Below, in pieces: positions 46,541 through 51,215 of a DNA stretch of 64,000 bases. The stretch covers positions 1 to 64,000 of the forward strand of contig JAOACS010000022.1 in assembly GCA_026417655.1 (NCBI GenBank), read 5' to 3'. The stretch comes from Syntrophobacterales bacterium (GTDB taxonomy: Bacteria; Desulfobacterota; Syntrophobacteria; Syntrophobacterales; Thermodesulforhabdaceae). The translations under genes and the position numbers were made by a program. The stretch's first letter is position 1. Every line of letters starts with the position of its first letter. The notes beneath the pieces are model-generated. The model was given only the letters and a program-made list of their open reading frames with translations. It did no database searches and was not told the DNA's origin.

Positions 46541-47707
46541 CTAATTTATCGGCAATTCCTCAAAAACTAAGATTGGTAGGGATCCTTCTTTGAGAAGCTT
46601 TGATTTTTCCATCAGAGGGTAACCAGAGCTGTCAATCAGCCGCCATACCTTCAGGATATCGAGGGAAGGATGGAATATAGCAGACAGCCTGAATCTAGAC
46701 GGAACCCTAACTCTATCCCTAGCTATGAGTTGATTGAGTGACTCATTTAATTTTGATGCCTCCTCTAGAAGTGGCGATCTATTCTGAGAATTCTCCACAT
46801 AACCTTGAAGCGATGTCCAGAAATTGACAGTATTGGGGCTCAGAGAGGTATTTAGATCGTAGAAGCGATCATCCTTCATTGTTTCGAAAACATTAGGTAC
46901 CTCGAGCAGGGTTAAAACGTCAGGGGACCAGTTGAAACCACTTCGCTCTTCTCTTGTTCTTACAGGATCTATTAGTTCCTCCGCCGAGTCTTTTGAAACA
47001 CATAAAAATATTGGTAAATCCTCCCCAAGGGTAATCACCTGCTCTTTTTTAATGTTACATCTGCTTACCCTAAAGGGAAACCCTGAAAAATAGATTCGTA
47101 GCCAATGGACTGCCCTCATTTTGGTTAGGTACCCAAAATAGCTCCTTCGAGGAAGTTCCTCAAGGGTAAGGCGCACAGATTCCTCCACCTCATTAAGATC
47201 TTCTTCTGCTTCAAGGCCTAGTGAGGATCTAAATAGACCTTCCAGCTCTTGGACTTTAAAAAGGTCATTATCCATCTCAATATCTCTTTCGTCCAGCTCA
47301 CGAGCTAGTTCAAGGAAAACAATGGACTCCACCACCATGTTCCATACAGGATCGGAGGGGATCATCTCGGGATTTTTCAGCATCGAGCGAAGATAAAGCC
47401 GGCTTTCTGACCATTCCTCCTCGGTCCTTGCAAAGGAGATTGTCTCCAGTAGGTGCCTTTCTCCGTGGATCTTGGCGAAGTTCTGGTAGCCTTTGTAAAT
47501 ATTTTGTAGAAGCTTTGTCTTTTCTTCATCGAGATAGAGAAGGCAGGTTGCTATAGTTCCCCTATCCCAGGGAGGACAATAGGGAGAGCGAATAAAGCCA
47601 AGGATATGGAGAGATGGGAGAACCAGTTGGATAAATCGGTAGTAGGAATCTGGAAGGTGAGAATAGGGAAATAGAAAAATTTTCTCTAGAAGTGTTTTAC
47701 TTGCCAT
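46541..47707 (-). CDS. Protein of unknown function between mqnD and gspE
   Basis: 388 residues, acidic and largely helical, without signal peptide, membrane segment or recognisable catalytic motif. It has WDRGTIATCLLYLDEEKTKLL near 47-67 and a Glu-rich middle (about 150-190). I do not recognise a family. It lies 33 bp after mqnD and 26 bp before gspE on the same strand, so it is probably co-transcribed with both. Position hints at a role with either quinone synthesis or secretion, but nothing in the sequence decides this. Confidence 0.75.
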   Translation of the reverse strand: MASKTLLEKIFLFPYSHLPDSYYRFIQLVLPSLHILGFIRSPYCPPWDRGTIATCLLYLDEEKTKLLQNIYKGYQNFAKIHGERHLLETISFARTEEEWSESRLYLRSMLKNPEMIPSDPVWNMVVESIVFLELARELDERDIEMDNDLFKVQELEGLFRSSLGLEAEEDLNEVEESVRLTLEELPRRSYFGYLTKMRAVHWLRIYFSGFPFRVSRCNIKKEQVITLGEDLPIFLCVSKDSAEELIDPVRTREERSGFNWSPDVLTLLEVPNVFETMKDDRFYDLNTSLSPNTVNFWTSLQGYVENSQNRSPLLEEASKLNESLNQLIARDRVRVPSRFRLSAIFHPSLDILKVWRLIDSSGYPLMEKSKLLKEGSLPILVFEELPIN

Positions 47708-47740: not shown

Positions 47741-48574
47741 TTATTCGTTCCAAAAGATCTTTTCAGCTAAATTAAAGCCCTTTTTGGTCATTTGTTCAAG
47801 AAAATGTATTATAGCCATCCTTCCACGATCCCCTAAATCTTCCGAAAACTCATTAACAAAGGCCTCTATGTGCTTATATATAATCTCTTTATCCATTTCA
47901 CTTGCAAACTCCAGGATGAAAGAGTAAATTTCCCCGTTTCTTTCCCTGGCATATTTAATACTCTTTTTGATCAGTTCATTGAAGATCTTTGCGATCCCCC
48001 GTTCAGCAAGATCTCTTTTAATCACTATAACCCCAAGGGGTAGAGGAAGAGAGAAGGTCTGAACCCATAATCTACCAAGGTCTAAAACTTCCAACAGCCC
48101 ATATGACTTGTAAGTCCATCTGCCCTCGTGGATGATAACACCGGCTTCAACGGTTTCATCTCTTACCATAGGCATGATGTCACTAAATGTCGTCTCAACC
48201 CGAGGACCCGTGTGCAAATCGAATATGTCTAAAAGCATATTAGCGGTTGTGCCCTTTCCTGGAATAGCTATTGACGCAGTTCTCAGTTCCTCAAGGGAAA
48301 GGGGTCTTTTCGAGACAATCATTGGACCCTCTGACTCCGTTAATGCTGCTGCTGTTGTAAGCATGACGTAATCCTTTGCTATAGCCGGATAGGAGCCCAC
48401 GGAAATCTTAGTTACGTCGAGGGCTTTTTCCTGAGCCATTCGATTTAGATTTTCGACGTCGGAGACAAGGCACTCGATAGCAAAATCAACGCCTGGGATC
48501 TTCCCCTTAGCAAGGGCACCGAATATAAAGGTATCATTTGGGCAAGGGGAGAACCCAACCTTTAATATTTCCAT
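47741..48574 (-). CDS. mqnD: 1,4-dihydroxy-6-naphthoate synthase
   Basis: 277 residues, periplasmic-binding-protein fold but without signal peptide, as in the cytoplasmic MqnD enzyme of the futalosine menaquinone route (cyclic dehypoxanthine futalosine to dihydroxynaphthoate). The N-terminal VGFSPCPNDTFIFGAL motif is diagnostic. IAIPGKGTTANMLL and AGVIIHEGRWTY are further family blocks, the latter with a His of the expected active site. It follows mqnB by 43 bp. Confidence 0.93.
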   Translation of the reverse strand: MEILKVGFSPCPNDTFIFGALAKGKIPGVDFAIECLVSDVENLNRMAQEKALDVTKISVGSYPAIAKDYVMLTTAAALTESEGPMIVSKRPLSLEELRTASIAIPGKGTTANMLLDIFDLHTGPRVETTFSDIMPMVRDETVEAGVIIHEGRWTYKSYGLLEVLDLGRLWVQTFSLPLPLGVIVIKRDLAERGIAKIFNELIKKSIKYARERNGEIYSFILEFASEMDKEIIYKHIEAFVNEFSEDLGDRGRMAIIHFLEQMTKKGFNLAEKIFWNE

Positions 48575-48617: not shown

Positions 48618-49433
48618 CTACCTAATCACTTTCTTGTCAAGAATCCTCATCGTAACAGCACATACATTGTAGATCGATCTCTCCATATCCCACCGTAGGC
48701 GATCCCGGTCTCCCGCTTGATTGCTTATACCTCTTAGGGCGAGAACTGGCACCCCAAGCCTTAATGAAGCCAACAAAAAGGCTGAAACCTCCATCTCTTC
48801 GATCCATGTTCCATAGATCCTTTGTCTCATGGATGCGATCTGTGGTGACCCGCTCGCAAGCCCTACAGAGCAGCTTGAACCATACCAGAGGTTGAAAGGT
48901 CTGATAAGCCCTTTATTTGCAGCATCCTGAAAAAATAATAGATCTTCCAGACTGTAACATCCTTCAGGAAAAAACCTTCTTACCTGCTCTAGAAAGGGCG
49001 AGTTTTCTAAGGAGATATAACCGTAGAGAGCCTCTTCGGTAGATTCGATGGGAGAAATTCCAATAGCTTCGTAGGATAAAAACCTATCCCCCCCTTCCCA
49101 GACTCCCTCATCACCCATAACGCACCTTGTAATTATCACAACGTCACCAATCATGGGGGGAACATGGCTATAAACTCCTGCAATCCCGAGATTAACTATA
49201 ATGGAGGGTCTTTCACTAATTTCTCCTAGCGCTCCCACAGTGAAAGCGGCATTGGCCTTTCCAATGCCCGTTGTCACTAACAAGAAGGTCCTACCCTCAG
49301 AGTCCACCATCTCCCATACATACTGTCCGTAAAATGGAAAGGAGTTTATCACGTTTCCGAATTCTGTAAGTGGCTCTAACTCCTTACCAACACTTGCTAA
49401 AAGCCATGCCAGAGGTTTTACCTTGCCTTTCAT
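48618..49433 (-). CDS. mqnB: Futalosine hydrolase
   Basis: 271 residues, nucleoside phosphorylase-hydrolase fold. Family blocks are LLVTTGIGKANAAF, VNLGIAGVYSHVPPMIGDVVI and EEMEVSAFLLASLRLGVPVLALRGISNQAGDRD, with the acidic pair that binds ribose and base. Together with the adjacent mqnD this identifies MqnB, which cleaves hypoxanthine from futalosine. A relative, MTA/SAH nucleosidase, is the alternative; the neighbour makes MqnB far more likely. MqnA, MqnC and MqnE are not in the window. Confidence 0.9.
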   Translation of the reverse strand: MKGKVKPLAWLLASVGKELEPLTEFGNVINSFPFYGQYVWEMVDSEGRTFLLVTTGIGKANAAFTVGALGEISERPSIIVNLGIAGVYSHVPPMIGDVVIITRCVMGDEGVWEGGDRFLSYEAIGISPIESTEEALYGYISLENSPFLEQVRRFFPEGCYSLEDLLFFQDAANKGLIRPFNLWYGSSCSVGLASGSPQIASMRQRIYGTWIEEMEVSAFLLASLRLGVPVLALRGISNQAGDRDRLRWDMERSIYNVCAVTMRILDKKVIR

Positions 49434-49517: not shown

Positions 49518-51215
49518 GTGAAGGTCATTGTTGCTAAAACGGCAGGATTTTGTAATGGGGTCCGTTATGCCCTAGATGTGACCCTTGAGGCTGTAAAGAG
49601 GAGGAGGCCTGAGGAAGTTATATGCACCTATGGTCCACTTATACATAATCGTCAGGTGCTTGCTATGCTTAGGGAAAAGGGAGTACAGGAGGTTAATACC
49701 CCTGAGGAATGTGCCGGAAAGACTGTTGTTATAAGGGCGCATGGTATTCCTCCTAACCTTCGACAGAACATCTATGGGGTTGCTTCCAATGTAATCAATG
49801 CTACCTGTAAAAGGGTTGCTCAGGTTCAAGCCGTCATTCGCCAACATGCTAGGAAAGGTTATCACACCGTCATCGTTGGGGATGCCGATCATGCGGAGGT
49901 AATAGGCCTTCTTGGCTATGCAGAAGGGAAGGGGGTTGCCATCCAACATCCCGACGACATTGATAAACTACCTGATGACTGGGATAGGGTTTTACTTGTA
50001 GCCCAGACTACCCAAAACGAGGAGATCTTCGAAGAAGTGGTGAAACGCTTCAAACGAAAATATCCTAACGGGATTGTAAAGAAAACCATCTGTGGTGCTA
50101 CCCATGAAAGGCAAGAAGAGGTTCGACAACTTGCTAGGAAAGTTGATGCCATGGTTATAGTAGGGGGATACCACAGTGGAAACACTGTTCGTCTTGCCCA
50201 AGTCGCCGCAATGGAGGGAGTCCCTACTTATCACGTGGAAACTGAAAGGGATCTCAACCCTCAAGAAATGGCTCGCTACAGAACCGTTGGTGTGTCGGCA
50301 GGCGCTTCAACACCCCAATGGATGATCGAGAATGTGGTTCGTTTTCTAGAGACTATTTCCCATCAGAGGGGATCCTCCAAAAGGTTGCTTCGAGAGATTT
50401 CGAGAATTCTTGTTTACTCTCAGACAATCTCCTTTCTCACCGGTTTTTTATCTACATTTGCCGTAGGGCTTCTTCTTTGGAAAAGACCTAACATTTTAAT
50501 CGCTTGCCTTGCCGGACTTCTATGTTTTGCTATCCAGGTCTTTCAGCGCTACCTTTCTTATCATGGAGTGCTCTTTAACGACCCGGAATGGACTAGCTTT
50601 CTCGTAAGACATAGGAAATGTCTCATTGGTATGGCTATTGTTCTTTCCATGATATTTTCTGGGTGCGTGTGGCTTAAGCCCTGGGCTTTACCTGGCTTTA
50701 TTCTTGCCCTAGCCTTTGGTAGTGCTTTGTTGATATGGGAAGAGAATCTCAATTCTGTTCCAGGCCTAGAATATGTAGCTAAATCCACCACCTGGACCTC
50801 TCTTACCGTTCTTATGCCCTTTGGAAGAGAGCTCTTCAGAAATTTTCTAGAGCTTGTTGTGGTATCATGCTTAGCATTTATTATCTTTTTTATAAAACAC
50901 CTCATCCAGGATCTCCTTGAGACACGTCAGGACCGTCTTATTGGTCGTAAGACGCTTTTTAGTACATGGGGACTTGAGAGGACAAAAAGATACCTTTTTG
51001 CTGGTATGTTATGTGTGATTCTATTGTTATTTCTAGGCCCCTCCCTAGGGGTGTTAACTAACGCTGCTTACCTGTTCATAATACCCATCGGAGGGTTAGC
51101 CTTTTGTCTTAGACGTTTTGTCGGTGAGCGGACAATGGTTGATACCATAATGACCGATCTTATAATAGACGGAAGCTTAGTTATTCCGGGGCTAATCGGT
51201 TTCTTGCTTCTTTAG
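49518..51215 (+). CDS. ispH: IspH (HMBPP reductase) fused to a UbiA-like membrane domain
   Basis: 565 residues. Residues about 1-285 form a complete IspH: cluster ligands C12 (TAGFCNGVRYAL), C97 (NATCKRVAQ) and C192 (KTICGATHERQ), the catalytic Glu in HAEVIGLLG, and the SAGASTP substrate motif. It makes IPP and DMAPP at the end of the MEP pathway. Residues about 295-565 are membrane helices in a UbiA prenyltransferase-like layout. The second Asp motif is kept (QDLLETRQDRLIGRKTL, about 464-480). The first (FNDPEWTSFLVRHRK, about 353) is degenerate. No stop or frameshift separates the halves. The gene is divergent from mqnB and the ATG has only a weak ribosome site. Confidence 0.85.
   Translation: MKVIVAKTAGFCNGVRYALDVTLEAVKRRRPEEVICTYGPLIHNRQVLAMLREKGVQEVNTPEECAGKTVVIRAHGIPPNLRQNIYGVASNVINATCKRVAQVQAVIRQHARKGYHTVIVGDADHAEVIGLLGYAEGKGVAIQHPDDIDKLPDDWDRVLLVAQTTQNEEIFEEVVKRFKRKYPNGIVKKTICGATHERQEEVRQLARKVDAMVIVGGYHSGNTVRLAQVAAMEGVPTYHVETERDLNPQEMARYRTVGVSAGASTPQWMIENVVRFLETISHQRGSSKRLLREISRILVYSQTISFLTGFLSTFAVGLLLWKRPNILIACLAGLLCFAIQVFQRYLSYHGVLFNDPEWTSFLVRHRKCLIGMAIVLSMIFSGCVWLKPWALPGFILALAFGSALLIWEENLNSVPGLEYVAKSTTWTSLTVLMPFGRELFRNFLELVVVSCLAFIIFFIKHLIQDLLETRQDRLIGRKTLFSTWGLERTKRYLFAGMLCVILLLFLGPSLGVLTNAAYLFIIPIGGLAFCLRRFVGERTMVDTIMTDLIIDGSLVIPGLIGFLLL

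Follow-up and report, generated by a model that had tools for sequence, protein, structure and literature searches.

IspH catalyses the final step of isoprenoid-precursor synthesis in bacteria. In the 64,000-nucleotide stretch of a Syntrophobacterales genome analysed here and referred to as the window (contig JAOACS010000022.1), the ispH gene runs on in the same frame into a membrane domain resembling UbiA prenyltransferases, and the question raised by this locus is what such a domain does. A sequence-only reading of the window had named three candidate roles for it, namely anchoring of IspH to the membrane, channelling of isoprenoid units, and a decayed or altered MqnP-type prenyltransferase of the menaquinone pathway. 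It had also proposed comparison of the predicted structure with UbiA structures, a survey of IspH-UbiA fusions across Desulfobacterota, and a search for a separate mqnP or ubiA gene.

The fusion gene and its IspH domain

Features of the locus are listed in Table 1. The gene starts with GTG at position 49518 and its stop codon ends at 51215 with zero internal stops; the open 565-codon frame thus lies where it had been placed before. A frame error joining two separate genes, one of the earlier reading's reservations, is ruled out, as the second species of the genus (loci L005/L153) has the same 565-aa frame with 76% identity, and the arrangement recurs among the other open reading frames examined (125 fused and one cut by a contig end, some genomes being counted twice). 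The fusion therefore stands.

Table 1. Coordinates of features in and around the IspH-UbiA gene of the window.
Feature	Coordinates	Strand	Remarks
388-aa protein	46541-47707	-	no Pfam or NCBIfam match
mqnD-type gene, futalosine menaquinone route	47741..48574	-	PF02621 VitK2_biosynth, 208 bits
mqnB-like futalosine hydrolase gene, divergent neighbour	48618..49433	-	fut_nucase 118.5 bits (cut-off 124.7); PF01048
IspH-UbiA fusion gene	49518..51215	+	565 aa, GTG start, one open frame
IspH (LytB) domain, residues 1-280	49518..50357	+	LYTB, TIGR00216, Foldseek 3dnf
Cys12 codon, 4Fe-4S ligand	49551..49553	+	invariant in 27 aligned fusions
Cys97 codon, 4Fe-4S ligand	49806..49808	+	invariant in 27 aligned fusions
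Cys192 codon, 4Fe-4S ligand	50091..50093	+	invariant in 27 aligned fusions
UbiA-fold membrane half	50370..51212	+	helix 287-300, then nine membrane helices 303-564 (AlphaFold, Foldseek, fused-domain profile)
Eroded motif I, residues 340-361	50535..50600	+	QVFQRYLSYHGVLFNDPEWTSF; Asn343 to Gln, Asp347 to Ser, NDP kept
KDIPxSKT site, residues 412-419	50751..50774	+	here NSVPGLEY; alignments of ~100 distinct fusions
Motif II, residues 460-479	50895..50954	+	KHLIQDLLETRQDRLIGRKT; Asp465, Glu468, Asp472, Gly476, Thr479

Residues 3-277 match Pfam LYTB (E 4.8e-85), the score against TIGR00216 is 269 bits (cut-off 187.85), and the AlphaFold model matches the IspH structure 3dnf with a Foldseek TM score of 0.85 by target. 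All three cluster cysteines are in place in a full-length LytB fold, in agreement with the intact IspH described in the sequence-only reading. This half is the single IspH match in the window genome (G000), where the MEP enzyme IspG is also present. As predicted from these data, it is the cell's IspH and is catalytically complete. The IspG gene of the same genome is split between two contigs (C20:129924-130610 and C21:51492-51848), probably owing to a contig break.

The best NCBIfam match of the window IspH is the IspH part of PRK00087 (296 bits), which represents IspH-RPS1 fusions. These resemble the window protein in having an extra C-terminal module behind IspH, but their module is ribosomal protein S1, which is unrelated to UbiA. 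In one family of the class, several genomes (G040, G042, G044, G047, G050, G052, G054 and G055) encode another, standalone IspH of ~308 aa alongside the fusion; it is only ~31% identical to the window IspH.

Distribution of IspH-UbiA fusions

Rao et al. (2015; PMC4746011) reported 47 IspH-UbiA fusions with two DXXXD motifs, most of them in Desulfobacterales and none outside sulfate reducers. Membrane localisation and a local supply of IPP/DMAPP were proposed, a separate UbiA/MenA was noted in the fusion-bearing genomes, and the full-length fusion could not be expressed. Beyond that paper, the literature searched for the term IspH-UbiA gave one passing mention. The architecture itself has been known since 2015, and the new part is the putatively silenced half in the window genus.

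The window protein shares domain order, size and phylum with the fusions of Rao et al., its UbiA-fold domain being C-terminal to IspH in one frame. The UbiA halves are homologous, as judged by a score of 88-92 bits (E 5.9e-25) against a profile of the other fused homologs only. It differs from them in having motif II alone of the two Asp-rich motifs, in the loss of motif I, the TM4 Tyr and the KDIPxSKT loop, and in having close relatives that appear to have deleted the half.

The survey across Desulfobacterota revealed that the fusion is widespread. Within the same order, the family of the window included, an IspH match was obtained in 38 of 38 other genomes, and in 35 of them it covers most of the fusion length in frames of >500 aa. 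The exceptions, G002, G003 and G004, all belong to the window's own family. The fused-half profile matches 62 of 148 genomes spread over the phylum. Nearly all of the strong matches lie in frames of ~570-630 aa, and a few genomes have weak matches alone, located in frames of ordinary UbiA length, broken frames or contig-edge pieces.

With an alignment as query, 366 matching stretches were obtained from named genomes. Nearly all of the best 80 of the 366 belong to Desulfobacterota (Syntrophobacteria, Desulfobacterales, Desulfarculales and others), and in these 80 the membrane half is always fused or cut by a contig edge. Named loci that coincide with relatives from the same order place the window in class Syntrophobacteria, order Syntrophobacterales, and the family is probably Thermodesulforhabdaceae. 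The fused UbiA domain is a subfamily of its own that is fused in essentially every genome having it.

The best 80 include a fused half in one MAG labelled candidate division Zixibacteria (L130), which may reflect horizontal transfer or mis-binning. In a second family of the phylum, two loci (L154 and L155, in G114 and G077) have strongly diverged UbiA halves that score 123-134 bits, and one of these halves contains two stop codons; this erosion is apparently independent of that in the window genus. Fused halves with one internal TGA occur in two genomes that share a family (L159 and L160; G127 C18 and G159 C31) and may reflect sequencing error, a frameshift or recoding.

Fold and active site of the UbiA domain

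The AlphaFold model of the whole window protein has a mean pLDDT of 87.5, and its UbiA half matches AfUbiA (4tq3) in Foldseek with E 5e-4 and a TM score of 0.66 by target. A typical fused half from a relative is predicted to adopt the same fold (mean pLDDT 87.6; TM score of 0.68 by target to ApUbiA, 4od4). Thus, the UbiA-like helix layout proposed earlier is borne out by the predicted fold, the match to 4tq3 and the fused-domain profile, and the structural similarity to UbiA on which that proposal depended is present. The window half stays under the cut-offs of generic UbiA models: against Pfam UbiA, it reaches 18.5-21.2 bits, under the cut-off of 34.2, which the typical fused half L012 clears with 37.1 bits. 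In comparison with AfUbiA and ApUbiA, the nine-helix fold and motif II are retained, but identity is ~13%, and the motif-I residues for Mg and diphosphate, as well as the catalytic Tyr, are missing.

In the fused subfamily, the motif-I region reads approximately HxLNrYlDrxAxxlNDPxRAaFY, the loop before TM5 is KDIPxSKT, motif II follows the pattern RTxxxDxxDxQGDRxVGxET, and a Tyr residue is present in TM4. The register of motif I was taken from a gapless alignment to the chlorophyll-synthase stretch LNDFYDRDIDAINEPYRP, a marginal match (E 0.039) that was used for the register alone and beyond which the PDB sequence search with the fused-domain profile gave nothing.

At the motif-I Asn and Asp positions, the window protein has Q343 and S347 and the second species of the genus Tyr and Ser. 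Both species lack the KDIPxSKT loop and the TM4 Tyr, the residue aligned with the latter being Leu or Phe depending on the alignment. Of the 104 rows covering ~100 distinct fused homologs, 96 have the motif-I Asn and 80 the Asp; the TM4 Tyr is found in all 101 readable rows, and KDIPxSKT is near-invariant. Motif I varies in the subfamily: about one fifth of the other fusions have another residue at the Asp position, for the most part Gly, which occurs there in a Desulfobacterales group. The Asp-to-Gly loci of that group (L104, L105, L110, L111, L117, L119, L120, L121, L122, L129, L131 and L133) retain motif II, the KDIPxSKT loop and the motif-I Asn. Of all sequences examined, those of the window genus are the only ones to miss the motif-I Asn and Asp, the TM4 Tyr and the KDIPxSKT loop all together.

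In AfUbiA, N68, D72, D198 and D202 bind Mg, and replacement of N68, D72 or K146 by alanine abolishes GPP binding (PMC4106721). The equivalents of N68, D72 and Y139 are needed for function of E. coli MenA (PMC4106721). In the window half, the counterparts of N68 and D72 and the near-universal TM4 Tyr (Y139) are absent. The acidic residues of motif II (D198 and D202) have counterparts in D465, E468 and D472, with Glu at the D198 position as judged by spacing. Hence, the sequence-only reading was correct in describing the second Asp motif as kept and the first as degenerate. Since the equivalents of N68, D72, K146 and Y139 are needed for GPP binding or function in AfUbiA or E. coli MenA, we infer with good confidence that prenyl transfer has been lost in the window half.

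Evolution of the UbiA domain in the family

Trees of LeuS, IspH and both joined placed the window genus (G000 and G001) as sister to G002-G004, with support of 92-100 for the G002-G004 clade and 99-100 for the window genus. The gene order in G001-G004 is mqnD, mqnB (divergent), dus (absent in G001), ispH, GT2, der and rho. In the window genome, leuS follows the fusion gene, and the closest relative of the GT2 gene is on another contig. In G002-G004, ispH is a standalone gene for 280-283 aa at the same syntenic place, with GT2 starting close behind. No match to the UbiA half was obtained in the G002-G004 genomes at E up to 10, which rules out relocation elsewhere in them, and no remnant was found around their ispH genes. 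As the fusion is present in the remainder of the order, deletion of the half in the G002-G004 lineage is the simplest account. Acquisition of a different UbiA domain by the window genus is likewise ruled out: the nearest relatives of its half outside the genus are fused domains, and therefore the half was not swapped in.

The ratio of branch lengths of the UbiA half to those of IspH is 10.4 on the stem of the window genus and 2.5 on other branches. After the split of the two species it is ~4.4 for the two taken together, still above the family mean of 2.5. Between their UbiA halves, pN is 0.211 and pS 0.727, giving a dN/dS of ~0.09 that is a rough bound, as dS is near saturation. The halves are 64.9% identical, as compared with 65.9% predicted from the IspH identity by the trend in 903 other pairs. 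A burst on the stem was followed by renewed purifying constraint, as estimated from two species with saturated synonymous sites.

These data bear on the possibility that the UbiA half is simply decaying, its function having been lost in the ancestor of the family, with the sister genera having deleted it already and the window genus not yet. The complete absence in G002-G004, the large stem burst together with the loss of motif residues, and the somewhat elevated branch ratio after the split would all be expected of decay. However, 276 codons have stayed open and in frame in two species that are near synonymous saturation, at the low dN/dS given above, pairwise conservation is on the family trend, and both species retain motif II along with several structural residues. 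A burst followed by constraint points to retention in a role other than catalysis more than to passive decay, which we consider rather unlikely.

Role of the UbiA domain

The window UbiA half is probably a silent pseudo-prenyltransferase that is kept as a membrane anchor of IspH. Sequence-level results (the fusion, the intact IspH, the predicted fold, the motif loss, the burst and later constraint, the absence in the sister genera and the separate MqnP) provide the basis, from which we infer silence, anchoring and retention. The fusion would have been inherited from the IspH-UbiA architecture widespread in Desulfobacterota. In the window genus, prenyl transfer would then have disappeared along with the catalytic Tyr and those motif-I residues that bind the prenyl diphosphate and Mg. 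Loss of catalysis would be tolerated because menaquinone is prenylated by a separate MqnP (see below) and IspH does not need the half. The membrane fold alone would remain under selection, most simply for holding IspH at the cytoplasmic side of the membrane, and the sister genera would have gone further by deleting the half. Of the roles suggested earlier, membrane anchoring is the one that survives, as a putative role. Channelling of isoprenoid units is unlikely for the window member, in which most of the diphosphate/Mg site is gone, and is possible for the family of fusions.

Some observations speak against an anchor. Motif II is kept, which is needless for a pure anchor, and some binding of metal or diphosphate may persist. 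The family can also do without anchoring, given that the half is missing from the sister genera, and the branch ratio after the species split exceeds the family mean.

The conservation of motif II as D-x2-E-x3-D would also suit a half that is still an enzyme, with altered chemistry or substrate, acting through motif II and new residues, and a burst followed by constraint fits a change of function as well. Such an enzyme is improbable, given that the half has lost the basic loop, the Tyr and both motif-I residues (Asn and Asp), equivalents of which are needed in AfUbiA or E. coli MenA (PMC4106721).

Alternatively, a non-catalytic UbiA fold could sense prenyl diphosphate or quinone and regulate the attached IspH. 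UBIAD1 and HMG-CoA reductase likewise pair a UbiA fold with an enzyme of isoprenoid-precursor synthesis, and offer an analogy only. Motif II would be available for sensing, but the motif-I diphosphate site is lost and the sister genera manage without the half, which makes this role distinctly improbable. Its most specific form, in which the silenced fold would read prenyl diphosphate or quinone via motif II and tune IspH as a bacterial counterpart of UBIAD1 without catalysis of its own, is a speculation that we regard as very doubtful.

The family offers a natural series. Elsewhere in the order, the fusions have a conserved active site; in one genus, the half is putatively silenced and yet under constraint; and in three sister genera it is cleanly absent while the genes around it are still there. 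This suggests that catalysis by the half is separable from the service of the membrane domain to IspH, and the natural variants named here could be used to set anchoring against catalysis.

Gene neighbourhood and the separate MqnP

As noted in the sequence-only reading, the fusion gene is divergent from genes of the futalosine route to menaquinone, and the MqnB-like and MqnD-type neighbours were both matched, the former slightly under its model's cut-off (Table 1). The search for a separate prenyltransferase gene identified an MqnP-type gene in the window genome (C2:130905-131747; TIGR01475, 286 bits), located beside a gene for a UbiE/MenG-like methyltransferase. A TIGR01475 gene over the cut-off and apart from the fusion is present in 29 of 31 genomes searched, G000 included. 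G000 has one other UbiA gene, which is similar to decaprenyl-phosphate phosphoribosyltransferase.

The window half shares the UbiA fold and the futalosine context with MqnP, but that it is a displaced or altered MqnP serving the adjacent pathway, as had been suggested, is hardly credible, since this genome encodes MqnP separately, the fused domain belongs to a different subfamily and is not among the TIGR01475 matches, and an mqnB neighbour is found in just 13 of the best 80 of the 366 named loci.

Among the same best 80 of 366 loci, 22 have a GT2 glycosyltransferase gene immediately downstream, and 31 have a Dus gene immediately upstream. The GT2 neighbour is uninformative on the UbiA half, because GT2 adjoins ispH also in the sister genera without the half. 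The 388-aa protein is encoded next to mqnD in the sister genera, as well as in 10 of the best 80 of the 366 loci; in Syntrophobacterales, it is an as yet unnamed partner of the mqnB-mqnD cluster.
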